Shown here in pieces: positions 5,701-38,958 of a stretch of 64,000 nt of DNA (positions within the stretch are counted from its first letter, which is position 1; the number at the start of each line of letters is the position of its first letter). The position numbers were made by a program, and so were the translations under genes. The notes beneath the pieces were generated by a model. The model saw only the letters and a list, made by a program, of their open reading frames with translations, did no database searches and was not told the DNA's origin. The stretch comes from Nautilia sp. PV-1 (GTDB lineage: Bacteria; Campylobacterota; Campylobacteria; Campylobacterales; Nautiliaceae): positions 1,354,501 through 1,418,500 of the forward strand of contig NZ_CP026530.1 in NCBI RefSeq assembly GCF_004006315.1, given 5' to 3'.

Positions 5701-8700
5701 CGTTTATACTTATATTCCCTCCTGAAAAAGCAAGTATTCCTGCTGCCCTGTTCTCTATATTATTCTGTGTGATAGAACCGATACTGATATTTACATCCAC
5801 ATTATCTGTTTTTGTCCTAATTCCTGTAGCGTCATCGCTGATATTGTTTTCACTTATCAAACTGCTGCTGATGTAAATACTTCCATTCTTTTCATCAGCT
5901 GTTATACCGCTAACTTCGCCTTTTACATTGTTTTGTATTATTGAACTGTTTGTTATGTTTATGTCTCCGACATGTGTAAAAGCCATTATTCCGCTTGCAC
6001 CATGGCTGATATTGTTTTCATATATCGAACCGCTGCTTATATTTACATTTCCGTTATCTTCCCTTGCCATTATTCCGTAAGCTCTACCGCCCACATCTTT
6101 TTGCGTTATTGAACTGTTTGATATATTTGTATCTCCAAAATTGGAATAAGATATTATTCCTGATGCATCTTTACTGATATTGGTCTCATTTATAGAGCCG
6201 GTATGAATATTTACATCGCCGTTACCGTTTATATATGTAAAAATACCGTATGTATACCCCTGTATACCTGAAAGAGTCATGTTTTGACTGTTTGTTACTG
6301 TTACACTGCCGTTACCTTCTGTCAACGTATGAACACCTGCAATATAATTGTAGCCATTGTATGAAGTCACATCGGTTATATTTACAATGTCAGAATTTGA
6401 AATTGTCACATTACCGTTATTATTTATGTTGGCCTCTATCGCCACTATATTTATATGAGGAGTTAACGATACGTTATCAACATTTATAGATTTGGAATTT
6501 GACACTGTTATATTTCCGTCTTTTTCTATATTTGTTCTTATACCGTATACATAACCGTTAATATATTTTGCTGTAATATTGGCATCGTTTCTGATATTAA
6601 TATTTCCGTTTGTGAGATTTGCATCAATTGAAACAGAGCCTAATTTTTCATTTCCTGATGATGAAGTGTCTACCAGTTGCATACCTTCTCCGCCTGTTAT
6701 ATGCTCTGTATCCAACTCTCCTGTGTTTACAACGGATATATTGCCTTCATAGGCATTCGCAAATATATTTTTGCTTAAATATGTCACATTGTTATCTGAA
6801 ATTTGTCCTTTATTTACAATATTGATATTACCTTCCAAAATTGCTGAATATATTCCGGTAAAATTACCGTCAATATTTTGTGTTCTCAAGGTGCCGCTGT
6901 TAATAACGGTGATATTGCCGGCATTGCTGGAAGAATCCAATATATGTTTGGTTGAATTTGCATCAATGGCTACCACGTTACCTATATTTGAAACATCAAC
7001 AATGTTTCCTGTATTGTTAATATCAACATTCCTTCTTGAACCGCTGTAGGTAAAAATATTTCTTGTAATTCCTACACTGTTATTTAATTCCATATTTCCG
7101 CTGTTTGTAATATTGATGTCACCTATGTCAGTTTCCGCTTTAATTCCGGAAATATTATATTGACTGTCCGAACCGCTGTTGATGTAATCCATATTTATAT
7201 TTTTGGAATTGGAAATTGTTATATTTCCTTCCTGCACATTTGCCCGTATACCATAAGTATAACCACTGATGAGTTTATTGGTAATGTTGTTTTCATTAAT
7301 AATATTCACATTACCTGTAACCACATCCGCATCTATTGAAACGGATCCTTGTATTGCATTACCTGACGTTCCAAGAATTAAACCGCCTGTTTCTCCTATA
7401 TATTCTGCATTGAGGGCTGCTTTATTAACAATTGTAACATTTCCTTCATCAACTGTGGCAAAAATCTGTTTATTTAGATTTGTTATATTGGTATCTGAAA
7501 TTTCACCTTTATTCGTAATACTGATATTACCATCATGAAGCTTTGAAAAAATTCCGTAAGAATAACCGTCAATATTCTGATTAACAATATTTCCACTGTT
7601 TAACACTGTTACATTTCCTCTATAAACAGTTGCATTAATATCAATCAAATTACCATTATTTACATTATTTGAAATATTTCCGTCATTGTTAATGTACGCA
7701 TTTATACTTGAAGCTGAACTGTGAAGCCCTACAACATAAATATTTGATGTCGTACCGTTATTGTCTTTAAACACCATGTTTCCGAAATTATTTATATTAA
7801 TATCACCGTTAACTGAAACAGCCCCTATTCCAAGAGTTTTTTTCTGACATTTTTCAATTGTTAAAATTCCTGTGTTTTTAATGTTAACATTATTTTCTCT
7901 TAAAGTGGAAATTACAAAAATAGATCCTGCGTGAGATCCGTTGTTTTCACTTAAGTTGCCTTCATTGTCGATATTAATGTCACCTTTACCAAACGCTAAG
8001 ATATTTGTAGCGTATCCATTAATATTTGATCCTGACAAATCGCCGGTATTATGAATGTTTATATTTCCTGCAATACCGGCATCGGCATAAATATTTGCGC
8101 CGTATACACTTTCATTTTCCTGATCCAAAGATCCTGTATTTGTAATAGTAATGTTTCCGTTTTTTGTATTAGCGAATATAGAATAATTATTTGTTCCGTT
8201 TATGTCTTTTATGTTACCGTTATTTACAATTGTTATATTACCGTCTTTTTGAATTTTTGCACTTACAGCTTTGTTTGTTCCGCCGATATTGTAACTGTTT
8301 ATATCAGCAGTGTTTGTTAGATAAATATTACCATTTGATATATTAACATCTAAAGAACTGGCTTTCCCTGTAATGTTATTAAGTGTAATATTACCTTCAT
8401 TTAATAAATTAACATTACCCTGATTATAAGAAACTGCAGAAACAGCTTTAAACTGTGAGGAATTAATGTCTGTTATTGAAGCTGTGTTTTTAATACTTAT
8501 ATTTCCGTATTGGCTTGATGCGACTATTCCACTGTTATAAGTGCCGTTTAAATCACTCATCTTAATAATACCGTTGTTGGTAATATTAATATCCGCACTG
8601 TTGCTGTTTACATCGATACCCGCTGTGTTATTGCTGTCCGCACCGCTGATTGTTCCGCTGTTTTTTATGGTCAAATTACCGTATTGGGCATATGCATTGA

Positions 8701-11700
8701 TTCCTGATGCGTTTTTATGTATTTCGCTCAGTGTAATATTTCCGTCGTTTTGAATATTCAAATTACCCCTATAAACGCCGCCGTATATACCTCTGGCGCT
8801 GCTTATATTCATTTCATTAATCGCTGCTTCATTTTTGATTTCAACATTTACATTTGATGTTTCTGAATTGCCATATGCATATATTGCCGTATCGGATTTT
8901 TTCCCGTTTGCCAATGTAATAATACCGGAGTTGTGAATACTGACATTACTATCGGAATATGCACTGATTCCTTCCGTGAAACCTGATGTTCCGGAAATAG
9001 TAATGTTTCCGGAATTGTTTATATAGGCTTTATTGGAACCGTTTGCATAAAGCCCAGTGCTTCTTTCAGCTGTTATGTTTGTTTCATTTATTGCACTTTT
9101 GTTGATTATATTTGCATATGTTGCATATTTGCTTACAATTCCGTAAACACCTTCATGCTCATGATCGCTACTGCTAATATTAATGTCACTGATGTTTATG
9201 ATGTTCGAATTCGTTACTGTAATGTTTCCACCGTATGTCTGTGTGTTGATGGCGTCTACAAACGCTTTGTCATAATTATATCCTGTAACATTGCTGATAT
9301 TTATGGTATTTGAATTTGTAATGTTTATAGAACCGTTATAATCGGTATTTGCGTTTATTCCGTAAACACTGTTGCCTGCCGTGGAAATTTTTATGCTTCC
9401 GCTGTTTGTAACATTGATATCTTTTCCGTTTTCAATATTGACGTTTATTCCCGTTACTTTATCTGAAACATTGTTTTCTGTTATTGAAGTGGAATTTACT
9501 ACACTTATGTTTCCTTCAGATGTGTTTGCACTGATGCCGTATGCTTTCCCTGCAATATTTTCACCAGTAATATCACCGTTGGTGTTTATTATTATATTGC
9601 CGCTGGTGTTTACATCAGCCTTTATAGCATATACGTCACCGTTTATATCAACAGAACTTACAGAACCTCCGCTTATGTTTATATCCCCTTTATTCACATA
9701 CGCATCAATTCCTGTTGCTGATTTTAACACCCCGCTTTGCTGTATGGATCCCGTATCTGTAATAGTAATGTTTCCGCTTGATGTATTTGCCTCGATACCT
9801 AAAGATTTGCCGAGTATATTCTGGGCATAAATATCACCGGAATTGACAATGTTTATATTGCCTCCGTTTTTAATATATGCATTTAAAGCTGTCACATTGT
9901 TTTCAATATTTACTGCACTGATCAAACCTGAGTTGTTTATATCGAGATTTGCCTGTAATGTTTTGGCATTTATGCCGTTGCTGTAACCTGATACATTATT
10001 ATCAGATATTGAACCGCTGTTTGTAATCTGAATATTCCCGTAAAGAGTGTTTGCCTGTATTGAATTAACATTACCTATCACATTATTGTTTGAAATGTTG
10101 CCGCTGTTGTTTATACTGATATTTCCGTCTTCATTAGTATTAGCGGAAATATCATATGCACCGTATACATTATTCATATCCATATCACCGGAATTGACAA
10201 TGTTAATATTTCCGGCATTAGCGCTTACAGCTTTTATTCCGTTCATACTTCCGGATATGTTCGTATCTGTAAAAGAAGCATTGTTTTCAACATTAATGTT
10301 TCTGTTGTTTACCGTTGCGTATATATTACTGCTATCTCCCGATGCTCCCAGAACATTGCTGATATTAATTGTACCTGAATTTTTCACGATCACGTTACCG
10401 GTTTCTGAAGATTTGGCAATAATTGCATTTACATATGTAGATACGTTGGAATCGGATATTGAAGCACTGTTTTGTATACTTATATTACCGTCTGTGACAG
10501 TAGCATGAATATTTCCGGCGTAATTGACATTTTCAATTTTCATTGTTCCGGAATTGGTTATTGTTAAATTTCCGTTTGTCGTAGAGGTTTTAATATTATA
10601 GGCATTATTGTTGTTTGTGTTTATTATTTCAGCATCGGTGCTGCTTGAAATATTTATGCTTCCGTTATTTTCAACATCTGCTTTAATACCGTATGCAGTT
10701 CCGTTTACATCGGTTATTTTTATCGTATTTCCAGTATTTTTTATAGTTAAATTACCGTTTTGCGTATATGCGTTTATACCTTTTGCGGCATTTGAAATAT
10801 TGTTTTCTGTAATCGAACCGGAATTGATTATATTTATATTCCCGCCTGTTGTGTTAAATTCTACGGCATATGCGCTTCCGGCGATATTTTCAAGTGATAT
10901 GTCGCCTGTACTGTTTAAGTCAAGGTTACCTCCGTTGTCGGTTTTTGCAAATATTGCATTAACCTCAGAAGAATTTATATCCGTAATAGAACCTGTGTTT
11001 TTAATATACACATCACCTTCACCCACATGCGCTTTAATACTGTAAACACTGTTATTTATATCTGTAGTGTTTATGCTACCACTGCTGATTATATTTATAT
11101 TACCATTGACAGCATAAACATCTATACCTTTGGCAGTATCGGAAATATTGTTTTCGGTTATATCGCTTGAACTGTTAACGGTAATATCCCCGTCTCTTAA
11201 ATTCGATGCTTCAATTGCATATGATTTTCCATCAATGTTTTTAATATTGATACTGTTTGAAGTAATTATATTTATATTTCCTGAAGTGTTTACATCCGCT
11301 TTTATTGCGTATACATCAGATCCTATATCGGAAAAACTCATACTTCCGCTGTTTGTAATACCGATATTTCCGCTTAAAACGTTTGCATTTATTCCTCTTG
11401 CCGCATTAGAAATATTACTTTCATTTATATCGCTTCCGCTGTTAATTAATATATTCCCGATTTTTGAATATGATTCAATAGCAAAAGCTTTTCCAGCTGC
11501 TTCATTAGTGGTCAAATCCCCTTTTGTGGTAATATTAATATCACCTGAGGAAGAAACTGTTTTAATTGAATATACATTACCACCGTTTGAAGAATTAATA
11601 ATATTTGCACTGTTGTCTATACTTATTTTGCCACTTCCTGTAGAAGCAGCGTTTATTCCTATCGCATTACTATCGGTAATACTGTTTTTTATCACTCCGG

Positions 11701-12373
11701 AGCTGTCAATGTTGATATTTCCGTTTCCTTCCGCTAAAGCATCAATCCCGTAAGAGTAACCTGTAACATCTTGGTTGTTAATACTTCCATCCGATTTAAT
11801 ACTAATATTTCCGTCTTTTAGAGACTCACTTTTAATACCCACTGCATTGGCGTCTATTATTAAATTTTCAATGGAACCGCTGTTAACAATATTCGAATTA
11901 CCCGTATCAGTATCCAAAAGAGCCTTAATTCCTGTGCTATTTCCTTCATTGTTTCGGTTAGATATCGTTCCACCAGTATTTTCAACATTTACCGTCCCGT
12001 TTTGCGAACTTACAGAAATACCCACACTCGTTTTTGAATTATTGTCTTCCAGTAATAGATTTGTGTTAAGGATATTAATATCACTGTTGACATCAGTGTT
12101 GGTATAAATTCCGATAAAACCTTCTGAATTATTCTCACCTTCGATAATACCATCATTTCTAATATAACCGCTACTATTAGAATCGACAGCCTTTACCAAA
12201 GAAGTGTTATTATCAGAAATGATGATACTACCATTTCTTTCAACTAACAAACTGTCACTACCTGTTAAAACTACACCTGTTGTATTTGTGTCATCTATGA
12301 CGATTGTCTGAGCATAACTGGCGCTTATTATCAAAGAGGCAGCTACGCAGCTAAAGAAGATTTTTTTATTCAT
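2765..12373 (-). CDS. Giant autotransporter adhesin (type Va secretion)
   Basis: 3202 residues, about 15 percent of the window. Residues 1-21 form a Sec signal peptide (MNKKIFFSCVAASL, cleavage near SYA-Q). The passenger, about 25-2700, is built from roughly 30-35-residue imperfect units of the pattern G-N/D-I-x-I-x-N-S-G-x-I followed by N-x-x-G-x-A-x-G-I-x-A. This Asn/Ser/Gly/Ile-rich pattern is typical of a right-handed beta-helix. The passenger carries only one cysteine (TIEKCQKK) and few basic residues. The last 280 or so residues form the autotransporter beta-barrel, starting near YLWFKPFG and ending with the aromatic-terminal signature KFDWKF expected for BAM insertion. A TATAAT box and an AAGGAT ribosome site precede the start. 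A surface adhesin role is the family expectation; the ligand is unknown. Many long minus-strand-shadow frames exist on the plus strand because the repeat is codon-regular. Confidence 0.93.
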   Translation of the reverse strand: MNKKIFFSCVAASLIISASYAQTIVIDDTNTTGVVLTGSDSLLVERNGSIIISDNNTSLVKAVDSNSSGYIRNDGIIEGENNSEGFIGIYTNTDVNSDINILNTNLLLEDNNSKTSVGISVSSQNGTVNVENTGGTISNRNNEGNSTGIKALLDTDTGNSNIVNSGSIENLIIDANAVGIKSESLKDGNISIKSDGSINNQDVTGYSYGIDALAEGNGNINIDSSGVIKNSITDSNAIGINAASTGSGKISIDNSANIINSSNGGNVYSIKTVSSSGDINITTKGDLTTNEAAGKAFAIESYSKIGNILINSGSDINESNISNAARGINANVLSGNIGITNSGSMSFSDIGSDVYAIKADVNTSGNINIITSNSINIKNIDGKSYAIEASNLRDGDITVNSSSDITENNISDTAKGIDVYAVNGNINIISSGSINTTDINNSVYSIKAHVGEGDVYIKNTGSITDINSSEVNAIFAKTDNGGNLDLNSTGDISLENIAGSAYAVEFNTTGGNINIINSGSITENNISNAAKGINAYTQNGNLTIKNTGNTIKITDVNGTAYGIKADVENNGSINISSSTDAEIINTNNNNAYNIKTSTTNGNLTITNSGTMKIENVNYAGNIHATVTDGNISIQNSASISDSNVSTYVNAIIAKSSETGNVIVKNSGTINISNVLGASGDSSNIYATVNNRNINVENNASFTDTNISGSMNGIKAVSANAGNINIVNSGDMDMNNVYGAYDISANTNEDGNISINNSGNISNNNVIGNVNSIQANTLYGNIQITNSGSISDNNVSGYSNGINAKTLQANLDINNSGLISAVNIENNVTALNAYIKNGGNINIVNSGDIYAQNILGKSLGIEANTSSGNITITDTGSIQQSGVLKSATGIDAYVNKGDINISGGSVSSVDINGDVYAIKADVNTSGNIIINTNGDITGENIAGKAYGISANTSEGNISVVNSTSITENNVSDKVTGINVNIENGKDINVTNSGSIKISTAGNSVYGINANTDYNGSINITNSNTINISNVTGYNYDKAFVDAINTQTYGGNITVTNSNIINISDINISSSDHEHEGVYGIVSKYATYANIINKSAINETNITAERSTGLYANGSNKAYINNSGNITISGTSGFTEGISAYSDSNVSIHNSGIITLANGKKSDTAIYAYGNSETSNVNVEIKNEAAINEMNISSARGIYGGVYRGNLNIQNDGNITLSEIHKNASGINAYAQYGNLTIKNSGTISGADSNNTAGIDVNSNSADINITNNGIIKMSDLNGTYNSGIVASSQYGNISIKNTASITDINSSQFKAVSAVSYNQGNVNLLNEGNITLNNITGKASSLDVNISNGNIYLTNTADINSYNIGGTNKAVSAKIQKDGNITIVNNGNIKDINGTNNYSIFANTKNGNITITNTGSLDQENESVYGANIYADAGIAGNINIHNTGDLSGSNINGYATNILAFGKGDINIDNEGNLSENNGSHAGSIFVISTLRENNVNIKNTGILTIEKCQKKTLGIGAVSVNGDININNFGNMVFKDNNGTTSNIYVVGLHSSASSINAYINNDGNISNNVNNGNLIDINATVYRGNVTVLNSGNIVNQNIDGYSYGIFSKLHDGNISITNKGEISDTNITNLNKQIFATVDEGNVTIVNKAALNAEYIGETGGLILGTSGNAIQGSVSIDADVVTGNVNIINENNITNKLISGYTYGIRANVQEGNITISNSKNINMDYINSGSDSQYNISGIKAETDIGDINITNSGNMELNNSVGITRNIFTYSGSRRNVDINNTGNIVDVSNIGNVVAIDANSTKHILDSSSNAGNITVINSGTLRTQNIDGNFTGIYSAILEGNINIVNKGQISDNNVTYLSKNIFANAYEGNISVVNTGELDTEHITGGEGMQLVDTSSSGNEKLGSVSIDANLTNGNINIRNDANITAKYINGYVYGIRTNIEKDGNITVSNSKSINVDNVSLTPHINIVAIEANINNNGNVTISNSDIVNITDVTSYNGYNYIAGVHTLTEGNGSVTVTNSQNMTLSGIQGYTYGIFTYINGNGDVNIHTGSINETNISKDASGIISYSNFGDTNISNSSITQKDVGGRAYGIMAREDNGNVNISSGSIYENNISHGASGIMAFTHVGDINITNSSIIQNNVKGEVSGITADEKNGSIYISSSLISENNISDDATGIRTKTDNVDVNISIGSITQNNIENRAAGILAFSGGNISINGTLISENNVSEEANGIIADTGDADLNISIGSVIQKNIGSEATGISGTVHKGDINISIGSINESNISSDANGIVANVETNGSINISSQNIINENDINGDASGLNANITDYGNINVANSALVDITDINGSANAFKLTAYEGNITLTNTGNINENNITGKASAINAYIKDGNGIVNIINSGRISITDVKSAQDNMTLAAINAKSDEGNITIQNSNTINISNIDLNGTDSAVMGLLASSTYGNLTINNNNADINISGAKIGINIGAQTAGDVSIYNTGNLSESNTSEYAANIAVNNFARAGNIDVNNSGILTAYGNKGTASYGIDINAYEMNTSIINSGNINEFNNTKTFGIRAFVEADLNITNTASLNIYNNGDATAIYAYTKFRNGNIDINNTGNITLKDNNASTLIFAEAHHSGNVNVFNNADIGIINANAENSYGIVANTESGDINITNKGVIYGYNIDENKTVTAIKAYTADGNISLTNAGIIKAYTAFDVPDNQAVINNTKYIETTMINTPKSLFENSGMLYLHLANAQTAANSQRQVEVNDFKLLGSGVLKLDTKLIKNDGKIKAVTPIVHAANSITMSKGSTVSIWFTGNNNSVARQFYDEKGKITDILIADNNMSVNVKDIKIVDNSPVVNFKAVLDANGTALSLETVMEKHYTPEYTPGSALSSTSFSLQFMNIISNLIINRENNAKGLNSGDKVFTDKYLWFKPFGMNTKQSDTDGKNGYSANTYGFGMGVDGEYDMNKFAGLAFFYSHTKVDVNNVDQSNEVSGYDFVAYGSKPVIDYRSMFNYQVGIGLQKNHSERYVSVIGKTATADYVSKSFYVQGSLSRVYKLSDKLSAVPIISGTFRYAKTPGYTETGADLYNLTVESANHSQEVLSLSSNFNYRHDDSLKFTSNIGINYVYDNNKNGLNAYFQGDPSSVFYTTGIDNSTLGVGLNVGMIKHFKNNFTFDLYYNVNKNMNSLLNQSVTAKFDWKF

Positions 12374-27691: not shown

Positions 27692-29029
27692 CTACATTGA
27701 AATTGTAGTGTTAAATACTTGAGCTGCTACTATACCGAAGTAAATAGTTCCGATTAACAGTATAAGCTGCCCTATAAGACTTCCGCTTGAAATTGTTATT
27801 TTTTTAATAGTTCCTTCAACAGGCTTGTCAAAATAAATATGTTTAACTATCCATGCGTAATATGCAACCGCTAGGGCTGAATTTAACAACGCAATTAAAA
27901 CAATCGGCCATAATCCAGCATCTATACCTGCATAAAACGCAACCGCTTTAGATAAAAATCCTGCCAATAGAGGAATACCCGCAAGTGAAAACAGCTGAAT
28001 GGTAAAGAATAAAGCATGTACAGGAGCTTTTGCGCCAAGTCCTTTAATATCTTCTAAATATTTTACACCTGATTCTCTTCTCAAGTCATTTAAAATTAAA
28101 AATACGCTTGTCTGCATAAATATATATGCAATCGCATAATAAAGTACACCCGTATATGAATATACACTTGCGGCAGCCGCAAACGGAATTAATGCATAAC
28201 CGCTGTGTGCGATTGATGAATATGCAAGTATTTTAGATATTCTTTTTTGCCATAAGGCCATGAAGTTTGCTAATGTCATAGTCAAAATCGCAAAAAAACT
28301 GAAAATTAAAACTGTTGAAGTAGGATATGCGATTAAAAACTTGTAAAATGCTTTAAATACGGCTACTAACATTACACTTTTAATAACACCGCTCAGTATC
28401 GCAGCGGCAGCGTGGTTGACCTGAGAATATGCATCCGCTGCCCAACCGTGCATTGGTACAACTGTAAGTTTGTAAAAAATACCCGCAAGCATAATAGCTA
28501 CGGCAATTAAGGTAAATTTACCGTGAACGTTCATTTCCGCATAAGTAAAACTGTCTGTTACAAAACTGAACAAAGCAAAACCAAGCAAAATAATACCGCT
28601 GGCTACCGCACCCGCGATAAATGCTTTTATTGCACCCTCAGCATTGTAAAAGTTTCTGATATTTGCAACTAAAACATATGAAATAATTGCAATCACTTCA
28701 AATAAAACTATAAATAAAAAGAAATTGTCAGTCTCTAAAATTGCAATACTCGCACCTGCTACAAAAAGCATCTGCGCAATCAGAGGTCTTTCAAAACCTG
28801 TTAACGAAAGTGTAACCGCGGCTAATGTCGCCAACAGTACATATTCCATCAACTGAGTTGAACTGTCCAACACAAAAAACGGAAATACGTCATTTAAACT
28901 CATTCCGTTGTAAATCATTACCGCACTAGCAATAAAAGCGACAATTGCAATAAGTTTTGCAATAAAAATGTTGCTTTTATAAAAAACCGGTACAAGTAAT
29001 CCCGCTGCTATTAATATTATAAAACTCAT
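27692..29029 (-). CDS. nuoN: Complex I subunit N
   Basis: 445 residues, about 14 membrane helices, one of the three Mrp-antiporter-like proton-pumping subunits. The conserved lysine/histidine-bearing segments of the proton channel are present (FYKLTVVPMHGWAADAYSQV, KISKILAYSSIAHSGYAL). It is the last gene of the operon. Its start codon shares one base with the nuoM stop. Length is slightly below the E. coli subunit (485), as usual in epsilonproteobacteria. Confidence 0.95.
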   Translation of the reverse strand: MSFIILIAAGLLVPVFYKSNIFIAKLIAIVAFIASAVMIYNGMSLNDVFPFFVLDSSTQLMEYVLLATLAAVTLSLTGFERPLIAQMLFVAGASIAILETDNFFLFIVLFEVIAIISYVLVANIRNFYNAEGAIKAFIAGAVASGIILLGFALFSFVTDSFTYAEMNVHGKFTLIAVAIMLAGIFYKLTVVPMHGWAADAYSQVNHAAAAILSGVIKSVMLVAVFKAFYKFLIAYPTSTVLIFSFFAILTMTLANFMALWQKRISKILAYSSIAHSGYALIPFAAAASVYSYTGVLYYAIAYIFMQTSVFLILNDLRRESGVKYLEDIKGLGAKAPVHALFFTIQLFSLAGIPLLAGFLSKAVAFYAGIDAGLWPIVLIALLNSALAVAYYAWIVKHIYFDKPVEGTIKKITISSGSLIGQLILLIGTIYFGIVAAQVFNTTISM

Positions 29030-30459
29030 TACATACCTCCAAGAAAGCTAAATGCTTTATTTGCTAAATCAAATATCGGCTGTGGTTGAATACCGAAATA
29101 AACAATCAACAACGCAAAAATTGCCAATGCAGCTTTTTCAGGAAAACTCATAGTAAATTCTACTTTTTGTACAAGCGGTGACATTTCACCGTGAATAGAT
29201 CTTCTTACAGCCCAGATAATATATCCGGCACTGATTAGTGAAGCTATTGCTATCACAGCTATCCACCATCCGAATGATTTAATAGCCGATACTATAATAG
29301 TAAGTTCACCTACAAATCCCATTGTGCCAGGCAGACCCAATGCAGCCATACCTGCTAATATAAATATAGCACTCGCATAAGGAGCTTTTTTCATAATTCC
29401 GCCCATTTCATCCATATACCATGTATGCGTTTTATGATGCATCCATCCCGCAATTAAAAATAACGGAGAAATAACAAGAGCGTGCCCGATCATTTCATAA
29501 AGAGCTGCGCTTAAACCGTCATAACTCATTGTAGCAATGGCAACCACTACAAGTCCCATATGCGAAATCGAGCTGTAAGCAACCATTCTTTTGATATGTC
29601 TTTCGTAAATAGCCAGCATTCCGGCAAACAAGGTAGTATTAAGACCGATTATAAGCATCCATTTTGCAAATTCCTGAGTAGTTATCGGCATTAACTCTAC
29701 AGTAAATCTTATTAAACCGTAAGCGCCCATTTTAAGTAAAACACCCGCAAGCAATACTGAAATACTGCTAGGCGCTTCAACGTGTGCGTCAGGCAGCCAT
29801 GTATGGAATGGAAATGCAGGAAGTTTTGCCGCAAACCCTATAAACATAAACCACCATATTAATGCAGGAGTCGCTAAAGCGGTTTCTCTTATTAGTGTTA
29901 AATCCCAGTATCCTGTCTGTTTAAACAGAAGATAAAAACCGACAAACATAAACATACTTGCAACGTGTGTATACAAGAAGAATTTAACCGCCGCATAAAT
30001 TCTTCTCTCTCCGCCCCAAAAACCTACAAGGAAAAACATCGGTACTAATGTAAGTTCCCAGAACATAAAGAACCATAAAACGTTTGTTGTCATAAATACG
30101 CCAAAAATTGGTCCGCTGAATAGTACAAGCAGACTGAAATACGCTGCCTGGTTTTTTTCTTCCCATGAAGTAAATACAACCAAAATCAACAATGCGGCCG
30201 TAAGCAGTAACATTGCGACACTAAGCGCATCGACTCTCAGCGTCAAATCAAATCCGAACTGCGGAACGCTCAAATATGTTCCAAGTTCCAAAAAGCCTTC
30301 TTGAGGAAGAGCATTGTACCAACTGAATGCGATAAAAAACTGTACTATAAACCAGCCGAGAGCTATATATTTAGCAAGCTCCTGATTGTTTCTCGTTAAA
30401 AAATAGAGTAATACCGATAAAAAGATCGGTGCAAATATAATATCTACAGCCACCATCAT
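29029..30459 (-). CDS. nuoM: Complex I subunit M
   Basis: 476 residues, antiporter-like membrane subunit. Key stretches are FMFWELTLVPMFFLVGFWGG with the conserved glutamate, FHTWLPDAHVEAPSSISVLLAGVLLKMGAYGL, and RHIKRMVAYSSISHMGLV. These lie around the ionisable residues that move protons. The start overlaps the nuoL stop by 4 bases. Confidence 0.96.
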   Translation of the reverse strand: MMVAVDIIFAPIFLSVLLYFLTRNNQELAKYIALGWFIVQFFIAFSWYNALPQEGFLELGTYLSVPQFGFDLTLRVDALSVAMLLLTAALLILVVFTSWEEKNQAAYFSLLVLFSGPIFGVFMTTNVLWFFMFWELTLVPMFFLVGFWGGERRIYAAVKFFLYTHVASMFMFVGFYLLFKQTGYWDLTLIRETALATPALIWWFMFIGFAAKLPAFPFHTWLPDAHVEAPSSISVLLAGVLLKMGAYGLIRFTVELMPITTQEFAKWMLIIGLNTTLFAGMLAIYERHIKRMVAYSSISHMGLVVVAIATMSYDGLSAALYEMIGHALVISPLFLIAGWMHHKTHTWYMDEMGGIMKKAPYASAIFILAGMAALGLPGTMGFVGELTIIVSAIKSFGWWIAVIAIASLISAGYIIWAVRRSIHGEMSPLVQKVEFTMSFPEKAALAIFALLIVYFGIQPQPIFDLANKAFSFLGGM

Positions 30460-32309
30460 AGACCCTTTACAATTATTAAGATTGCAATAACGATTATCGC
30501 AACACCGATAACGAATTGACCCATATAAGTACCGATTTTACCGCTGTGTCCGGCTCTTAATACTTTATATACGCCCTGCGAAGCCGGCACTGTCGCGTTT
30601 ACAAGATAATCTATTACATTTGTATCAAACCATCTTGCTGCCTTAGCCACAGCGTTTACAACTATGGTTTTTGATATCCATGTAATCATTTTTTCAACAT
30701 AATATCCGTTGAATAAAATCTGATGGATTGTCTGTACAAAATGATGAGATGCAATTTTATATAAAAGATTGAGGCCTTTTACATAAAGCCCAACAACAAT
30801 TAAGAAAATAATCATCATACCTGTAAGCATAAATGCGGTAAGACCTGCAATATGCGGTTCTACCATTTCTTTACCGTTTAATATAAAGCTTACAATATCG
30901 CTTTGCCAGATTGATATAAACAGAGTGACAAACGCCAATATTCCGAGAGGCAGTCTTATCCAAAGATTGCTAGGCGTATGTACACTACCCGCTATATCTT
31001 CATTTCTAGGTTCGCCTAAGAAAATAAGTACCCAAAGTCTTGTAATGTATCCGATTGACAACAGCGCAGCAATTGTAACGAACACTTTTGTAAATTCATT
31101 TCCATGAGCCCATGCTGAAGCAATTACCGCTTCTTTAGAAAAGAAACCGCTAAACGGCGGAACACCTGCAAGTGAAAGTGATCCCATTGCCATAAACAAC
31201 GCAACAAACGGAGCGGTTTTAATTAAACCTCCCAGTTTCCATGCGTCTTTTGTATGGTGTGCTATATATATAACGGCACCAGCACTTAAGAATAAAAGTG
31301 CTTTAAAAATAGCATGATTTACCAAATGAAGCATTCCTGCAGCTAAACTGCCGACACCTAATCCTACGAATGCTATAGACAAATGCGACATTGTTGAATA
31401 CGCAAGTATTTTTTTGATCTCTTTTTGTACAAGCGCACTTGTCGCTCCTATAAACGCTGAAAGTGCAGCAACGTTAGCCACAATAAATAACGCATCAGTA
31501 TAATGGAAGAAGTCAAATAATCTAGCAACAATATATATACCTGAGTTAACCATTGTCGCACCGTGGATTAACGCCGATACTGTTGTCGGACCTTCCATAG
31601 CGTTCATAAGCCACGGATAAAGAGGAAACTGACCTGATTTACCGATAGCACCCATAAATATAAACAGTGCTACAACCAATGCAACATTTTTAGAAATTTC
31701 ACCTGCATTTGCCATTTCATTCAGCTCAACCAAATTAACAGTACCTGTATAATAAACAAGCAAACCTATAGCCGCTAAAATGAATATATCACCGAATCTC
31801 GTATATAAAAACGCCTGCATACCCGCATCGGCTGCAGAATTTTTATAATACCAGAAACTAATCAGTGCATAAGACGCAAGCCCCATGAATTCCCAGCCTA
31901 CGAAGGCACCGATTAAATCTTTTGTAATTACGAGTAAAATCATACCTCCAATAAAAAATAAAACTTTTGCATAGTATCTAGGCTGATCAGGATCATCACC
32001 CATATAATCATGCGCAAAGTGTATATCAGCAAAGCCTAAACCTGTTGCAATCAGTAACATCACTATACTTAAATGATCAATATAAATACCAAACGGCAGT
32101 TTTAAATCCCCGTACGATATCCATGTATAATCAATATTTATCGGAGTATCACTGTAATTAATAAAAATCACAATACTGGCCAAAAACAGCATTGCACCTA
32201 CTATTTCAGCTACCCAAAACGCTAAATTTATTTTAATTTTTCCTAAAATGTAAGCTAACACCGCACCTAAAAACGGTGCGCACAATAATATTAATACTGC
32301 ATTATTCAT
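30456..32309 (-). CDS. nuoL: Complex I subunit L
   Basis: 617 residues, the largest antiporter-like subunit, with a C-terminal extension that forms the lateral helix along the membrane arm. Diagnostic segments are GWEFMGLASYALISFWY, FPLYPWLMNAMEGPTTVSALIHGATMV and KEIKKILAYSTMSHL. The start overlaps nuoK by 8 bases. The presence of L, M and N together means a full proton-pumping arm, unlike short energy-converting hydrogenases that carry one or two such subunits. Confidence 0.96.
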   Translation of the reverse strand: MNNAVLILLCAPFLGAVLAYILGKIKINLAFWVAEIVGAMLFLASIVIFINYSDTPINIDYTWISYGDLKLPFGIYIDHLSIVMLLIATGLGFADIHFAHDYMGDDPDQPRYYAKVLFFIGGMILLVITKDLIGAFVGWEFMGLASYALISFWYYKNSAADAGMQAFLYTRFGDIFILAAIGLLVYYTGTVNLVELNEMANAGEISKNVALVVALFIFMGAIGKSGQFPLYPWLMNAMEGPTTVSALIHGATMVNSGIYIVARLFDFFHYTDALFIVANVAALSAFIGATSALVQKEIKKILAYSTMSHLSIAFVGLGVGSLAAGMLHLVNHAIFKALLFLSAGAVIYIAHHTKDAWKLGGLIKTAPFVALFMAMGSLSLAGVPPFSGFFSKEAVIASAWAHGNEFTKVFVTIAALLSIGYITRLWVLIFLGEPRNEDIAGSVHTPSNLWIRLPLGILAFVTLFISIWQSDIVSFILNGKEMVEPHIAGLTAFMLTGMMIIFLIVVGLYVKGLNLLYKIASHHFVQTIHQILFNGYYVEKMITWISKTIVVNAVAKAARWFDTNVIDYLVNATVPASQGVYKVLRAGHSGKIGTYMGQFVIGVAIIVIAILIIVKGL

Positions 32310-32610
32310 CGCTCACCGCCTTATCTAGTTTATCTGGAATAATTTCGCCGGTAATTCTATAGCTTAATAAGAAAATAAGCACTCCGGCAGCCGCTTCAAG
32401 TGTTGCGATCACTATAATTACGTATGCAACCGCCAGTCCTCTTGTAAGACCGAAATGATATGCCGCACTAGCTAAAAACAGAATTACTGCATTTAGCAGT
32501 ATTTCAAGTGAAAAGAAAATCTTTAAAAAATCGCTTTTACTTGTAACTCCGTACAAACCTACTCCGAACAGTATAATTGCAAATATTGCATCTATATAAA
32601 AATTAACCAT
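32302..32610 (-). CDS. nuoK: Complex I subunit K
   Basis: 102 residues, three membrane helices, standard length. The two buried glutamates of the E-channel are seen in FFSLEILLNAVILF and VIIVIATLEAAAGV. It overlaps nuoL and starts 2 bases after nuoJ. Confidence 0.95.
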   Translation of the reverse strand: MVNFYIDAIFAIILFGVGLYGVTSKSDFLKIFFSLEILLNAVILFLASAAYHFGLTRGLAVAYVIIVIATLEAAAGVLIFLLSYRITGEIIPDKLDKAVSDE

Positions 32611-32612
32611 TT

Positions 32613-33080
32613 TTATTCCTTTTCATGTTTTAGTGTATGCAGCATTCTAATACTACCGTACAATACGCTAGCAGCTACAACACCCATAAAAATTGCTATT
32701 TCAGCATAAAAATCAGTAAATACCTTAACCTGGTCTTTTAAAGGAATAGCTTTCCCTTCATACGGAATAGGAGGTAAAATAAACGGAATTATCAATAAAC
32801 CGATTACTACAACCGTTACAATAGCAACAGCCCAAGGTCTGATTTCAAATTTAGGAAATTTCGCACCGATAACAGTTACACCGAAAAGCGTCAATACAAC
32901 AATACCTCCGGTATATACAAATATTTGAAATAAACCTAAAAGTTTTTCATCCATTAAAATATAGTAAATACCCAGCAAAAACATCATCAGCACAAAAGCA
33001 AGCACGGCAGGAACCGTGTTTTTTTGTGTTAACGACATTACTGCAAGAATTACCGCCAATGCAAGTATTAATACACTCAT
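32613..33080 (-). CDS. nuoJ: Complex I subunit J
   Basis: 155 residues with about five membrane helices. The conserved stretch FQIFVYTGGIVVLTLFGVTV corresponds to the helix 3 segment with the pi-bulge that links the E-channel to quinone chemistry. The start shares one base with the nuoI stop. Length is a little under E. coli NuoJ (184). Confidence 0.94.
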   Translation of the reverse strand: MSVLILALAVILAVMSLTQKNTVPAVLAFVLMMFLLGIYYILMDEKLLGLFQIFVYTGGIVVLTLFGVTVIGAKFPKFEIRPWAVAIVTVVVIGLLIIPFILPPIPYEGKAIPLKDQVKVFTDFYAEIAIFMGVVAASVLYGSIRMLHTLKHEKE

Positions 33081-33649
33081 TATGCATCTCCTTTAGAAGC
33101 TTCAGTATTTTCAGCAGACTTCTCAGCTTCTTCTTTTGCTTTTGCTTCTGCTTCAGCCTTTTTCTTAGCTTCGGCTTCCGCTTTTTTCTTAGCAAGCATT
33201 TCAGCTTTTTTTCTAGCTTTTTCTTCTTCTTCTTTTTTCTTTTGTTCTATCCATTCAGCCGGAACTTCCGGTTTAACCCAGTAATTCTTAATATCATCAT
33301 CGGTACCTCCGGTAATCATTTCGAACGTACCGCCGCTTAGTTTGATGGCTTTTTCCGGTTTTGTCGGACACACGTCTTCACAAAGTCCGCAGAATATACA
33401 TATACCCAAATTAACTTCAGGCAAAGCTTTAGGTCTTTTAATCGGCAGAGGCTCCATTATAATCGCATCAACCGGACAGATTTTTGCACAGGCTTCACAT
33501 CCTGTACAGATATCATATCTGATTTCATGTTTACCCCTAAAAACAGGAGATTGATGCATTGTTTCATGAGTAACGTCTTTAGTAGCAACTCTCGGCTCTT
33601 TAAAAGCTTTTGTAACCCTTATTATTTTTTCTACAACATTAAAAAACAT
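33080..33649 (-). CDS. nuoI: Complex I subunit I (2x[4Fe-4S] ferredoxin-like) with charged tail
   Basis: 189 residues. Two [4Fe-4S] motifs carry clusters N6a and N6b: CTGCEACAKICP (Cys48 onward) and CIFCGLCEDVCP (Cys84 onward). From about residue 136 to the end, the protein is a run of lysine, glutamate and alanine predicted to be a single charged helix, not part of the core fold. In this operon NuoI would be the outermost iron-sulfur subunit, because NuoE, F and G are missing; the tail may therefore matter for docking an electron donor. That role is inferred. Confidence 0.94.
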   Translation of the reverse strand: MFFNVVEKIIRVTKAFKEPRVATKDVTHETMHQSPVFRGKHEIRYDICTGCEACAKICPVDAIIMEPLPIKRPKALPEVNLGICIFCGLCEDVCPTKPEKAIKLSGGTFEMITGGTDDDIKNYWVKPEVPAEWIEQKKKEEEEKARKKAEMLAKKKAEAEAKKKAEAEAKAKEEAEKSAENTEASKGDA

Positions 33650-33650
33650 C

Positions 33651-34622
33651 TTATGCTCCTAAAATATATATTTTCGCAAAAATTATCCAAACTAAGTTTA
33701 GAATTGCCAAAGGAGTCAGCCAGCTCCAACAGAACTTAAGCATTTGGTCAAGTCTTAATCTCGGGTTACTTGCCCTAATTGCAACCATTACCACTGCTAA
33801 AAGAGCTATTTTCAAAAACAGCCACCAGAAACTGTCAAAAAACAGCCCTCTGTATCCTCCGAAAAACAATACTACAGCTGCAGCTGAAACAACAAGCATT
33901 TCTGTAAATTCAGCAAATTTTAAAAGTACGTAGTTTGTACCGGCATATTCCGTATAAAAACCGTATACAATTTCCTGTTCAGCATCAGGAATATGAAACG
34001 GAGGCTGTTCAAGAATACCTAGCATGGCAATAATGAATATAATTGCCCCTGGCAATAAAATCAGTGTAGTAAGCCAAGTATTCATTGACTGAATTTCATA
34101 TAAATTCATTGTTCCGAACAGCAAAGCAGGAGCTAATGCCGAAAGGAAAAACGGCGCTTCCATCGAAAGCATCTGAGCCAAAATCCTCATACCGCCAAGA
34201 AATGAGTATTTATTGTTTGAACCGAAACCTGTAAGGAATAATAAAAACGGCTCAACACCGATTAATACAACAAGTCCCAAAACACCGTAATTTGTATCTA
34301 AAATACCGTGCCCGTTATTAATCAGAGGCGTCCAAGGTATAAGTATAACCGGAAGCGCGGCAACCAAAGGCGTAATTATTGGAATGATATTAAATAGATA
34401 AGGGTCCGCACTCTTAGGAGTGATAGATTCTTTAGTCAATAATTTAAATACGTCAAATACTGTCTGCAGCGTTCCTGCAGGACCATTAAAATGCGGACCA
34501 ACCCTTTTATGTATATAAGCGAGCGTTTTTCTTGCGAAATAAAATACGAAAAACGTCCATGCTAATAAAAACAGAAGACCCGGAAATACCAAAATGTAAA
34601 ATAACATTGCTCCAACACTCAT
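33651..34622 (-). CDS. nuoH: Complex I subunit H
   Basis: 323 residues, about eight membrane helices; it forms the quinone chamber and joins the peripheral and membrane arms. Conserved stretches are RVGPHFNGPAGTLQTVFDVFKLLTKE and DAEQEIVYGFYTEYAGTNYVLLKFAEF, which bear the acidic residues of the proposed proton path. It starts 9 bases after nuoCD. Confidence 0.96.
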   Translation of the reverse strand: MSVGAMLFYILVFPGLLFLLAWTFFVFYFARKTLAYIHKRVGPHFNGPAGTLQTVFDVFKLLTKESITPKSADPYLFNIIPIITPLVAALPVILIPWTPLINNGHGILDTNYGVLGLVVLIGVEPFLLFLTGFGSNNKYSFLGGMRILAQMLSMEAPFFLSALAPALLFGTMNLYEIQSMNTWLTTLILLPGAIIFIIAMLGILEQPPFHIPDAEQEIVYGFYTEYAGTNYVLLKFAEFTEMLVVSAAAVVLFFGGYRGLFFDSFWWLFLKIALLAVVMVAIRASNPRLRLDQMLKFCWSWLTPLAILNLVWIIFAKIYILGA

Positions 34623-34631
34623 TTTCTCTCC

Positions 34632-36281
34632 TTATCTATCCAGGTCACCCTGACAGATATGCATACTTCCGTACAGTAACGGAATATCTGAAAGGGTTTT
34701 ACCTTTTAATAGTTTGTTTAGCATCATCGTATGGTTTACGCTAGGCGCTTTAATTTTAAGTCTGTAAGGACTTGTTGATTTATCCTGTGTAACAAGATGC
34801 ATTAATATTTCGCCCCTAGCCCATTCAATTCTTGAAACGGCTTCGCCTGCCGGCATTCTTCTAGGCATTTTTACAAGATGGTCTTTTTTAGGATCCATTT
34901 CACCTGCTTCAATACCTTCTTCTATTTTTGCCATTGCCTGCTTGATAAGATCCATTGCCTGTTCTAATTCTTTGAATATAATTAAAAGTCTGTCTCTGGC
35001 ATCACCTGTATCACAATTTACATAATCCATTTCCAATTTGTCATACGCTGCATAAGGTTCGTCGATTCTCACATCTATTTTTGCACCGCTGGCTCTGGCA
35101 ATAGGCCCAGCCAGATAATATTCCGCAACATCTTCAAGAGTGAATATACCGTTACCTTTAGCCCTTGTATTCATTAGAGGGTTTTTCATAAAAATATCAG
35201 TAATATCCGCTTTTGTGTCTTCAAATTTTTTAATGGCCTTATTTATTCCTTCAAACCATGCTTTATAATCGTTTAGCGGGTATCTCACTCCTCCCGGTTC
35301 TACACATGCAGTGGCGATTCTTGCGCCGGAATAATCTTCCAATACATCCAAGAAATATTCTCTTATGTCAAGACACCACATCATAAACGTATGAAGCCCC
35401 ATTGTACCGAAGAAGCCTCCCATTGAAATCAAGTGGGAAGCTATTCTTCCGGTTTCTCCTAAAATCACTCTCATGTATTTAGCGAAATCGGTAATTTCTT
35501 TTCCTGCTATTTCCTCAACAGCCTGTGAATAGCAAATCATTGGATTTGGATTATCCATAAAACAGATTCTCTCAACCGCTACAATAGTTCCTATAAAATC
35601 TTTTCTTTCCGCCAAATGTTCAAGAGCACGCCATACGTAACCGATATCCGGCTCTACTCTTTCAATATTTTCACCGTTTACATATACTTTTAATCTTATA
35701 GGTCCGCTGGCAGGATGCGTAGGTCCCCAGTTAAGAACCGTTCTGCTTCCTTCATGCCCGAGATTTTCTTCATTTTCATCATATTCTTCAAAATATTCTT
35801 CTGTAATATCGTTGATATTTTGGATCAGATGCTCTTCATGCGCTTTCCAGTCAAAATCTTTTCTAAACGGAAATTTACCGTAATAGTCACGGCTGATTAA
35901 GAAATATCTTAAATTCGGATGGCCTTTAAATTTAACCCCGAAAGTAGAATATGCCTCTAGCTCATGCCAGTCTGCGCTAGGCATTAAAGGAGTAATCGAA
36001 TCGATTTCACATTTATCAAGATCTCTTTCAACGTCAACTTTCAGCCAAACATTCTTTTTGTTAAAAAGATCTTCTAAAAAGTAATTTACTTCTATTTTGT
36101 TCTCATCAATAAAATCGGTTGGTGAAACAGTTGAACATGTTTTTACACCCGCTTCTTTTAAAGCTTCTACAACTTCTAACAAATCTTCTTTGTTTTTAAG
36201 TTTAGCTTTAACCCATGTAGGTTTATAATCTTCAACATATTCCATGTCGAATTTATTTAAAATATTTTTAATATTCTCCAT
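34632..36281 (-). CDS. nuoCD: Fused complex I subunits C and D, divergent quinone site
   Basis: 549 residues from the ATG at 36281 with an AAGGG ribosome site; the in-frame TTG two codons earlier is too close to that site. The NuoC part (about 1-165) ends with the 30-kDa signature WHELEAYSTFGVKFKGHPNLRYFL-like segment. The NuoD part starts near LNWGPTHPASGPIRL. In ordinary NuoD the segment reads HPxxHG, whose second His binds the quinone head group, and a Tyr follows in RMDY. Here the His is missing (HPASG) and the Tyr aligns with Phe in ERICFMD. The GYVWRALEHLAER text is closer to group 4 hydrogenase large subunits, but no CxxC nickel ligands occur at either end. Campylobacter has separate nuoC and nuoD, so the fusion is notable. 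Confidence 0.9.
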   Translation of the reverse strand: MENIKNILNKFDMEYVEDYKPTWVKAKLKNKEDLLEVVEALKEAGVKTCSTVSPTDFIDENKIEVNYFLEDLFNKKNVWLKVDVERDLDKCEIDSITPLMPSADWHELEAYSTFGVKFKGHPNLRYFLISRDYYGKFPFRKDFDWKAHEEHLIQNINDITEEYFEEYDENEENLGHEGSRTVLNWGPTHPASGPIRLKVYVNGENIERVEPDIGYVWRALEHLAERKDFIGTIVAVERICFMDNPNPMICYSQAVEEIAGKEITDFAKYMRVILGETGRIASHLISMGGFFGTMGLHTFMMWCLDIREYFLDVLEDYSGARIATACVEPGGVRYPLNDYKAWFEGINKAIKKFEDTKADITDIFMKNPLMNTRAKGNGIFTLEDVAEYYLAGPIARASGAKIDVRIDEPYAAYDKLEMDYVNCDTGDARDRLLIIFKELEQAMDLIKQAMAKIEEGIEAGEMDPKKDHLVKMPRRMPAGEAVSRIEWARGEILMHLVTQDKSTSPYRLKIKAPSVNHTMMLNKLLKGKTLSDIPLLYGSMHICQGDLDR

Positions 36282-36290
36282 CGCCAACCC

Positions 36291-36764
36291 TTAAAATTTC
36301 ATTTGTTTCCAGAGTCCGCCCTGGCTTGACGCGCTGGGCTCTCCTCTTTTGATTTTTTCTTTAAGTTCCTCCAGCCCTGCGATAATAGCTTCAGGTCTTG
36401 GCGGACAGCCGGCTACAAACACATCTGCCGGAAGAATTTCCGTCATGTTTTTAATAACGGAAACCGAATCGTTGTAAGGACCTCCGTCATATGCGCAAGC
36501 TCCGATCGCAACCACATATCTAGGTTCAGGCATCTGTTCATATGTTCTAAGAAGCGCCGGAAGTATTTTTTTACTTACCAGCCCCGTAATAAACATAATA
36601 TCCGCCTGTCTCGGCGTCGGGGTCATTATGTATCCGTATCTTTCCCAGTCATATCTAGGCCCCATAGCCGCAAGCATTTCCAGCGAACAGCATCCGCTAC
36701 AAAAATGTACAATCCAAGGAGATTTACTCCTTGCATAATTAAAAAAATCAAGAACTTTTAGCAT
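36291..36764 (-). CDS. nuoB: Complex I subunit B (cluster N2)
   Basis: 157 residues. The N2 [4Fe-4S] ligands are Cys25-Cys26 in FCSGCCSLEM, Cys90 in IGACAYDGGPY and Cys120 in AGCPPRPE. An extra Cys22 gives a CxxCC arrangement, which combines the tandem cysteines of NuoB with the CxxC spacing of hydrogenase small subunits. The gene overlaps nuoA by 17 bases. Together with the divergent NuoD, this suggests a lineage between classical Nuo and hydrogenase-related complexes. Confidence 0.95.
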   Translation of the reverse strand: MLKVLDFFNYARSKSPWIVHFCSGCCSLEMLAAMGPRYDWERYGYIMTPTPRQADIMFITGLVSKKILPALLRTYEQMPEPRYVVAIGACAYDGGPYNDSVSVIKNMTEILPADVFVAGCPPRPEAIIAGLEELKEKIKRGEPSASSQGGLWKQMKF

Positions 36765-37086
36765 TTCTATACTCCTTCATACTAATCGTAATAGCCGCGA
36801 ACAGCAAAATCCCAAATACCATTGCCCAGTTAAGCGCATCAGTAGAATCTGCAAAAACAAAAAGACTGAAAAACAGTCCTGCCATATCGAATACGATAAA
36901 AGCTATTGCAAAAATAAAATATCCGAAATTTGCTTTCATCGGTACTTCTGAACTCGGCGGAAGACCGCACTCAAAGTGATCGTTTTTTATTTCGCTCGGA
37001 TTCAGAGGCGCCACCGCTATACCTATCAGGTACAGTAAAATCACGCCTAATAAAATTCCGGCCGCAAAAAATAGAATTGTTCCCAT
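36748..37086 (-). CDS. nuoA: Complex I subunit A
   Basis: 112 residues, three membrane helices. The loop FECGLPPSSEVPMKANFGYFIFAIAFIVFDMAGLFF matches NuoA, including the conserved ECG motif and the acidic residue in helix 2. First gene of the operon, preceded by an AAAGGAG ribosome site and a TATAAT box. No nuoE, nuoF or nuoG occurs upstream, downstream or inside the operon. Confidence 0.95.
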   Translation of the reverse strand: MGTILFFAAGILLGVILLYLIGIAVAPLNPSEIKNDHFECGLPPSSEVPMKANFGYFIFAIAFIVFDMAGLFFSLFVFADSTDALNWAMVFGILLFAAITISMKEYRNAKSS

Positions 37087-37245: not shown

Positions 37246-38958
37246 TCACACTTTTATGAACCCTAACTCTTTGTCACTGTCAAAAGCATTGCCTTTTTCT
37301 GTTTTTATCTGTTCGATAAAATCATCGGTTTTAAATACTGGTTTTTTTCTCATTGCGACTTTCAGGGCGGTATTTTTAATTATCACTTCTATCTGCGCTC
37401 CGGTTAATTCGAATTCTGCAAGCCTGTCTATATTAAAATCAGTTTCATATTCGGCATTTTTAGGAAGTTTGATTTTCCATAGTTTTTTCCGTTCTTTAAA
37501 AGAAGGCTTTTCAAACTTTATTTTATATTCGAATCTTCTGGAAAAAGCACTGTCAATTGTTTCTAAAAGATTGGTAGTGGCAATTAACAATCCGTCAAAT
37601 TTTTCCAGCTGCTCTAAAAATATATTCTGCATCTGATTATGCATTTTATCTGCACTGCTCAGCGCCGAAGTAGTACGCGAACTTAAAAACTGATCAGCCT
37701 CGTTAAGCAGTAAGATAGGTTTAGTTTTCAGTTTTTCGCAAATCGAATAATATTCGTCAAACATCTTTCTGACGTTTTTTTCACTCTCCCCCACATACAT
37801 TGATAAAATTTTACTGGAATCCAGACTTAAAACTGGTTTTTCCAGCTCTTTAGCTATAGAATGCGCCGTAAGGGTTTTACCTGTACCCGGAGGCCCGTAA
37901 AAAATAATTTTTGCCTCCATATCGTTGCTTTCTTTAATACCCCATTCTTTTAACAGTCTAAGAACTTTTTTATCTATCTGTTTTAAAAGCGTATTTATCA
38001 TTTCTTTGGTTTTTGCGGGCAGTATTACCTCATCAAGCCCTTTTTTAGGCTCTATAAAATCAAAAATCGTTTCTCTTACAATATGTTCGATTTTATGTTT
38101 TTTCTTTGGATGAATAAGTCCGTTTAAAATATCCTCATTTAAAAAGTATATTTTGCTGTATCCGCCAAATGCCCCTATCAGTTCGTCATATTCAAATATA
38201 CCTTCGCTTAAAAGTTTGGAGTTGTCGTCTAAGAGCGTTCTGTTTTTTATTCTTTCTATTTCATCGTTGCTGATTAAACTCAAAAGATAATTCTGTTCCC
38301 TCGCGTTTTCGTTGCTGGAAGTATATTCTTCTTTTAACAGAGCCAAAAAAAGTATTTCTTCTTTTTCGTTTAATTCGTTCTCTTCAATGAAATTTTGAAC
38401 CGGAAGTTCTATTTTCGTTTTTTTAATTTTTTCTTTAATCGTATTTTCAATTAGTTTAAGTTTGCTCTGAAGCCTTTTGATGCTGGCCGTCTCTTTATTA
38501 GAATTTGATTTTATTCCGCTTAGCTGCTCATACAGTTCAATCCTCAAAAACTGATCATGCAGATATTCCAAATGATCTTTATAAGGCGTTTTTTCAGGAA
38601 TAACCAAATCAAGGCTTCCCTGTTCTATCAGTTTTAAAAACGCTACCGAAAGTGAAACTGAAGAATTGAATATCTCAAGCACTGAAAGATCGTTATTTTT
38701 AATCTGGCTAAGACTGCTTACAACAATCCAGCCCTCTTCCAAAAGATTTTTTATCAACGCGACTTTTTCCAACGCTGTAATTTTATCTTCCCCGAAAAGC
38801 TCTTTTAACAGATTTCTGACTCTTACATCTTCGTTGCCGTCTATGTATTCGGAAAGAAGTTTTTTTAATATCTGCAGTTCTTCATCGTTTACATTCAAAA
38901 TATCAATAATTTTGCTTTTTTTTGGTTCGTTTAAAAAAAGCTTTATATTTTCGATCAT
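37246..38958 (-). CDS. AAA-family ATPase of unknown role
   Basis: 570 residues. The first 300 or so residues are helical with no recognised domain. A classical AAA module follows: Walker A FYGPPGTGKT (353-362), Walker B region ILLLNEAD (415-422), sensor 1 ATTN (460-463), arginine-finger-like SRRF (473-476), then a small helical lid. The first acidic residue of Walker B is Asn (NE instead of DE); the catalytic Glu420 is kept. The MYVGESEKNVRKMF segment resembles Cdc48/FtsH-like AAA proteins. No membrane helix or protease domain is present. It is transcribed divergently from rsmE; no context suggests a substrate. Confidence 0.8.
   Translation of the reverse strand: MIENIKLFLNEPKKSKIIDILNVNDEELQILKKLLSEYIDGNEDVRVRNLLKELFGEDKITALEKVALIKNLLEEGWIVVSSLSQIKNNDLSVLEIFNSSVSLSVAFLKLIEQGSLDLVIPEKTPYKDHLEYLHDQFLRIELYEQLSGIKSNSNKETASIKRLQSKLKLIENTIKEKIKKTKIELPVQNFIEENELNEKEEILFLALLKEEYTSSNENAREQNYLLSLISNDEIERIKNRTLLDDNSKLLSEGIFEYDELIGAFGGYSKIYFLNEDILNGLIHPKKKHKIEHIVRETIFDFIEPKKGLDEVILPAKTKEMINTLLKQIDKKVLRLLKEWGIKESNDMEAKIIFYGPPGTGKTLTAHSIAKELEKPVLSLDSSKILSMYVGESEKNVRKMFDEYYSICEKLKTKPILLLNEADQFLSSRTTSALSSADKMHNQMQNIFLEQLEKFDGLLIATTNLLETIDSAFSRRFEYKIKFEKPSFKERKKLWKIKLPKNAEYETDFNIDRLAEFELTGAQIEVIIKNTALKVAMRKKPVFKTDDFIEQIKTEKGNAFDSDKELGFIKV

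Follow-up and report, generated by a model that had tools for sequence, protein, structure and literature searches.

Organization of the operon

The window analyzed here is a stretch of 64,000 nucleotides from Nautilia sp. PV-1, a bacterium of deep-sea vents (GCF_004006315.1, NZ_CP026530.1, positions 1,354,501 to 1,418,500), whose genome is a single 1.79 Mb contig. An operon of ten genes on the minus strand has the order nuoA-B-CD-H-I-J-K-L-M-N (Table 1) and, with C and D fused, encodes NuoA, B, C, D, H, I, J, K, L, M, and N together, the 11 subunits of a complex I-like enzyme. The genes of the NADH module, nuoE, nuoF, and nuoG, are absent from the operon. The AF2 model of the fused NuoCD has a pLDDT of 87.3 and a pTM of 0.88. 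Over the same interval the plus strand is full of stops; where relatives of the protein are named, they belong to Nautiliaceae, and a second genome of the genus encodes a NuoCD that is 94% identical. A wrong strand, a wrong frame, or a pseudogene was ruled out by the open frame and these homologues. Across the loci of the NuoCD family that were examined, which span several taxonomic families, the gene order was constant where the stretch was long enough. NuoCD scored below the NCBIfam cut-offs for NuoD equivalogs (NF004739, 314.2 of 360; TIGR01962, 251.5 of 459.35 bits) and for FpoD of the F420H2/methanophenazine enzyme Fpo (234.9 of 600 bits).

Directly upstream of nuoA, an AAA ATPase (37246-38958, minus strand) weakly matches the anti-phage ATPase IteA; it has a 72% identical neighbor at another locus (L013), and at two more (L094, L096) homologues are located close to ordinary nuo genes. 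Elsewhere in the window (2765-12373, minus strand), a highly repetitive protein of 3202 residues has an autotransporter-like C-terminal part. In one other genome (G300, L064 17572-18942), a CoA-disulfide-reductase-like flavoprotein gene directly follows nuoN; it was rejected as a sulfur link, as it is not adjacent in the other operon loci looked at.

Table 1. Genes of the operon and acceptor-site and cluster motifs, in window coordinates
Feature	Position	Strand	Basis or remark
nuoA	36748..37086	minus	PF00507
nuoB, 157 aa, proximal [4Fe-4S] subunit	36291..36764	minus	above NCBIfam NuoB subfamily cut-offs; best PDB match MbsJ when trimmed
NuoB C22-x-x-C25-C26 motif	36687..36701	minus	family-wide alignment
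nuoCD, fused large subunit, 549 aa	34632..36281	minus	D domain from about residue 180
S192-G193, deletion site of Nqo4 His38 (HPAS-GP)	35703..35708	minus	alignment
C240-F241-M242-D243: first Ni Cys kept, Tyr87 to Phe, second Ni Cys to Asp	35553..35564	minus	alignment
T293, position of Nqo4 Asp139	35403..35405	minus	alignment
C543-Q-G-D546, C-terminal hydrogenase CxxC as CxxD	34644..34655	minus	alignment
nuoH, groups with complex I NuoH	33651..34622	minus	PF00146; tree 97/93; charged loop residues conserved
nuoI, two [4Fe-4S] ferredoxin-type motifs, charged C-terminal tail	33080..33649	minus	profile matches
nuoJ	32613..33080	minus	profile match weak but specific
nuoK	32302..32610	minus	profile match; listed as missing in N. 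profundicola in PMC2628731
nuoL, antiporter-like pump subunit	30456..32309	minus	TIGR01974, 425 bits (cut-off 407.5)
nuoM, antiporter-like pump subunit	29029..30459	minus	TIGR01972, 403 bits (cut-off 263.8)
nuoN, antiporter-like pump subunit	27692..29029	minus	TIGR01770, 208.9 bits (under cut-off 332.6)

The membrane arm

Judged by its sequences, the membrane arm is of the complex I type. NuoL and NuoM exceed their NCBIfam subfamily cut-offs, three antiporter subunits and NuoA are present, and the family has the charged residues of ordinary complex I in NuoL, NuoM, and NuoH. In the NuoH tree the family groups with ordinary complex I (97/93), and a position as sister to MBS was rejected (p 0.012). 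The NuoH loop before the conserved PF reads LEQPPF, closer to hydrogenases than the NRxPF of ordinary complex I. The Mrp-type membrane arm of MBS was not found in the operon. Operons of the MBS type with Mrp-like genes do occur in Campylobacterota (L088 2336-11567, in G037, and L090, in G094); MbsL-like proteins with RICVPEPD and ICPPE[IM]ER were found in 5 of 397 sampled genomes, and the operon layout was seen in two. Bacterial MBS has already been reported from other phyla.

Loss of the quinone headgroup ligands in NuoD

We aligned 33 sequences of the NuoCD family with 25 ordinary NuoD/NuoCD, seven MBS-type, and eleven group 4 hydrogenase sequences. The ordinary set consisted of 21 NuoD/NuoCD sequences from Campylobacterota together with Thermus Nqo4 (2fug), mouse NDUFS2, Aquifex, and E. 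coli, the latter four taken from solved structures. All family members are from the Campylobacterota genomes sampled; five rows are duplicates, leaving 28 distinct D domains with a lowest pairwise identity of 53%.

NuoCD contains GPTHPASGP and ERICFMDN, and the initial annotation had concluded from the HPASG and ERICF segments that the usual quinone-binding His and Tyr are absent. The alignment confirmed this throughout the family: the Nqo4 His38 column is a gap and the Tyr87 column a Phe in 33 of 33 sequences, whereas the ordinary sequences have His and Tyr in 25 of 25. The column of Asp139, the partner of His38 according to complex I work, is occupied by Thr (26), Asn (6), or Ser (1) in the family and by Asp in all 25 ordinary sequences. 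A displaced His or Tyr, the alternative that the annotation itself had raised, was ruled out by the alignment, as the nearest remaining His (H189) corresponds to Nqo4 H34, conserved in ordinary sequences too, and the Tyr nearest to F241 is Y251, ten residues further along. Because they extend over 28 distinct D domains and down to 53% identity, these losses are a conserved trait. His38, Tyr87, and Asp139 are all missing from MBS as well, the first two also from the group 4 hydrogenases.

Two retained nickel-site cysteines

The hydrogenase-like text that had been noticed in NuoD, without nickel CxxC pairs, was likewise borne out by the alignment, but two retained cysteines had been overlooked. 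Each of the two nickel CxxC motifs still begins with Cys in 33 of 33 family sequences (C240 and C543) and ends in Asp instead of the second Cys, again in 33 of 33 (D243 and D546); F241 and M242, between C240 and D243, are equally invariant. This first nickel Cys is present in hydrogenases and MBS and in none of the ordinary complex I sequences of the set. In the columns of C543 and D546, hydrogenases have Cys and Cys, MBS has Cys and Asp/Glu, and ordinary complex I has Ile/Val and Glu/Asp; the second nickel positions of MBS are Glu and Glu/Asp. D243, N244, N246, and Q544 are each found in all 33 family members; the corresponding MBS residues are Glu, Pro, Pro/Val, and Pro.

With group 4 [NiFe] hydrogenases (Mbh, Ech, Coo, HycE), the family shares the first Cys of each nickel motif and the ERxC context. 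It differs in having C-x-x-D at both places instead of two nickel CxxC motifs, and a hidden NiFe hydrogenase was ruled out by this incompleteness of both; with the second nickel Cys of each motif and the equivalent of MbhL E21 missing, no NiFe site is expected. The window's genome also encodes a HycE-like large subunit (L093 8673-10037; C1, about 700.7-702.0 kb) that has lost all four nickel cysteines. If the 'hyc' operon of N. profundicola, listed as a hydrogenase, encodes its counterpart, that operon may specify a hydrogenase-related complex without NiFe.

The cluster motif of NuoB

The CSGCC of NuoB had been described as mixing the spacing of both families, a description that the relatives uphold. 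All family NuoB sequences read HFC[ST]GCCSLEM, whereas ordinary NuoB of the same phylum reads FGTACC, and the CxxCC spacing is invariant among NuoB relatives. MbsJ reads FCTGCGG in ungapped register with the family; the extra Cys is in register with MbsJ C25, and C26 of the family lies opposite an MbsJ Gly. CxxCC is a combination of the hydrogenase/MBS CxxC with the tandem CC that complex I uses for its N2-type cluster, here C25-C26 with C22 in addition. Since the tandem pair occurs in every family NuoB, the predicted cluster could be fully Cys-ligated. In MBS only three Cys residues bind the cluster, so that one iron stays open for sulfur chemistry; with the fourth NuoB Cys in place, such a mechanism would not be simply transferable. 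A true MBS was ruled out by the cluster motif and the membrane arm.

Phylogenetic placement

The NuoD tree, rooted with hydrogenases as outgroup, resolved four clean groups: hydrogenases, the NuoCD family, MBS, and ordinary complex I. The ordinary NuoD clade is monophyletic (100/98), with the NuoCD family outside it and outside the group 4 hydrogenases too (100/99). The family falls outside a grouping of MBS with complex I (95/91), on a long stem for which long-branch attraction is possible, and approximately unbiased (AU) tests gave p 0.07 for a position as sister to complex I and p 0.21 for sister to MBS. Neither NuoD nor NuoB nor the concatenation fixes whether the family joins MBS, complex I, or a deeper branch. 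Both the NuoD and the NuoB tree agree with the proposal that the complex is an intermediate branch; the AU values leave room for either sister placement, and NuoH sides with complex I. We read the trees as setting the family apart from both MBS and complex I, with NuoH favoring complex I.

The best-scoring solved relative of the D domain is MbsL (6u8y_L, 8.7e-49), with complex I almost as close, and that of trimmed NuoB is MbsJ (6u8y_J, 4.1e-42). In Foldseek and VIA-align comparisons the NuoCD model fell beside 49 kDa subunits of complex I (Z about 44-45); the absence of MBS from the matches listed excludes nothing. We are highly confident that the complex represents a distinct, deeply separated subfamily of complex I.

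Distribution

At E below 1e-80 the family was found in 14 of 397 sampled Campylobacterota genomes, nine from the taxonomic family of the window's genome (that genome included) and five from other families; an earlier draw of 100 genomes contained further carriers. Several carriers outside the window's family and outside Nautiliales also have an ordinary NuoD. In the window's own genome, no other complex I large subunit was found, the other matches being group 4 hydrogenases and one Cys-less relative. A plasmid search gave no match of at least 60% identity; the rows listed were 29-32% identical and, where annotated, ordinary NuoC/D. For Thermovibrio ammonificans, PMC5441870 describes a second nuo cluster without EFG and calls it conserved in Caminibacter.

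The partial complex I of Nautilia profundicola is very probably the same enzyme; as far as the available text of PMC2628731 goes, it is described as lacking nuoE, F, G, and K, reverse electron flow is proposed, and its acceptor site is not discussed. An 11-subunit enzyme of Desulfitobacterium has the same subunit set and gene order and likewise no N-module. It is described in PMC11238625 as keeping the features that quinone reduction requires, whereas here the three headgroup positions are lost and two nickel-site cysteines are kept. Within the open-licence literature available, we found no description of such a site in an 11-subunit complex I.

Proposed mechanism and electron acceptor

The acceptor chemistry of this enzyme is probably non-canonical. 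As a tentative working model, we propose a ferredoxin-linked, reversible proton pump that may use menaquinone as its acceptor through a rebuilt site. Because the N-module is missing, electrons would enter through NuoI from a cytoplasmic carrier, probably ferredoxin or flavodoxin, and would then pass over the two NuoI clusters and the NuoB cluster into the chamber between NuoB, NuoD, and NuoH. The coupling loops of this region would drive NuoL, NuoM, and NuoN, presumably with proton pumping, and the enzyme could also run backward, the pmf driving electrons to ferredoxin in these H2-dependent autotrophs. Menaquinone would be held and protonated by D243, N244, N246, Q544, and the two cysteines in place of the usual ligands; this polar chamber end, compared with the prolines of MBS, would suit proton-coupled chemistry.

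We favor menaquinone because the complex I arm is complete, with NuoA and three pumps, because NuoB has the tandem cysteines, and because menaquinone genes are present while a separate PsrC-type route for sulfur is probable. The genome has MqnP and MqnA/D-type matches, as in the ordinary futalosine route; these lend no support to methionaquinone, an acceptor suggested in the initial annotation. A different quinone would in any case not be a sufficient reason for the changed site, since ordinary NuoD of this menaquinone-using phylum keeps its His and Tyr. PF14589 was found in 17 of 21 Nautiliaceae, and a PsrC-like subunit for sulfur respiration is probably available separately. The lack of any other complex I large subunit among the matches in the window's genome also counts for menaquinone. 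Against it, all quinone-reducing members compared keep His38, Tyr87, and Asp139; MBS and the group 4 hydrogenases, without the His38 and Tyr87 ligands, do not use quinone; and the occurrence of the complex beside ordinary NuoD in several non-Nautiliales genomes would make it partly redundant.

The main rival, which was absent from the initial annotation, follows from the closest match of the acceptor site, MBS, an enzyme that reduces polysulfide. The complex would then be driven by ferredoxin, reduce sulfane sulfur (polysulfide or disulfide), and pump protons through its complex I-type membrane arm. Among solved structures, MBS scores best against NuoB and, by a narrow lead over complex I, against the D domain, and the MBS of Pyrococcus furiosus (6u8y) resembles the family in lacking His38, Tyr87, and Asp139, in having C-x-x-acid twice, and in the extra CxxC Cys; several genomes, moreover, have the complex beside an ordinary complex I, and Nautilia is a sulfur reducer (PMC2628731). 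We nevertheless consider this reading unlikely. MBS combines an Mrp-type arm with a three-Cys cluster, whereas the NuoCD complex combines a complex I arm with CxxCC, and the mechanism needs the three-Cys cluster, while C26 offers an available fourth ligand in every relative. MbsJ C25 and MbsL C85/C385 are themselves dispensable for MBS catalysis, and most Nautiliaceae probably already have a PsrC-like subunit. The energetics are tight as well: at textbook potentials and 180 mV, a three-pump arm moving about 4 H+ per 2 e- needs ~0.36 V, which transfer from ferredoxin to menaquinone supplies and transfer from ferredoxin to sulfur does not.

The equivalents of C240 and C543 share one nickel in hydrogenases; in the NuoCD family the pair might make up a redox-active disulfide, or a catalytic metal site completed by D243 and D546. 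All four are invariant (33/33), but the equivalent MBS cysteines are dispensable and the D546 position is acidic in ordinary complex I too, which makes such a role very unlikely. Still less probable is neutral drift of the site in an otherwise ordinary, quinone-reducing complex I, with Cys and Asp residues that reflect ancestry only. Retention of the complex I architecture and of the CC motif would fit this, but substitutions that are invariant over 28 sequences as divergent as these look constrained.

Evolutionary implications

A published proposal derives complex I from hydrogenases whose four nickel cysteines were lost in successive steps, with two still kept in MBS and none in complex I (PMC7684303). 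The NuoCD family has a complex I membrane arm yet keeps the same two cysteines as MBS, and its NuoB CxxCC contains the ancestral and the derived spacing. It is conceivable, though we regard it as somewhat doubtful, that the family is a stem branch in which the complex I membrane arm was complete before the quinone ligands appeared, and whose acceptor lies outside canonical quinone chemistry. The acceptor site would then still be in the hydrogenase/MBS state, with two nickel cysteines and a CxxC becoming CC, and the membrane arm would predate the quinone site. The family also offers a natural test of whether quinone can be reduced in the absence of His38, Tyr87, and Asp139, and this in an organism whose genome yielded no second complex I. 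This complex I variant may thus preserve a step in the evolution of complex I, or it may use its electron acceptor in an unusual way.
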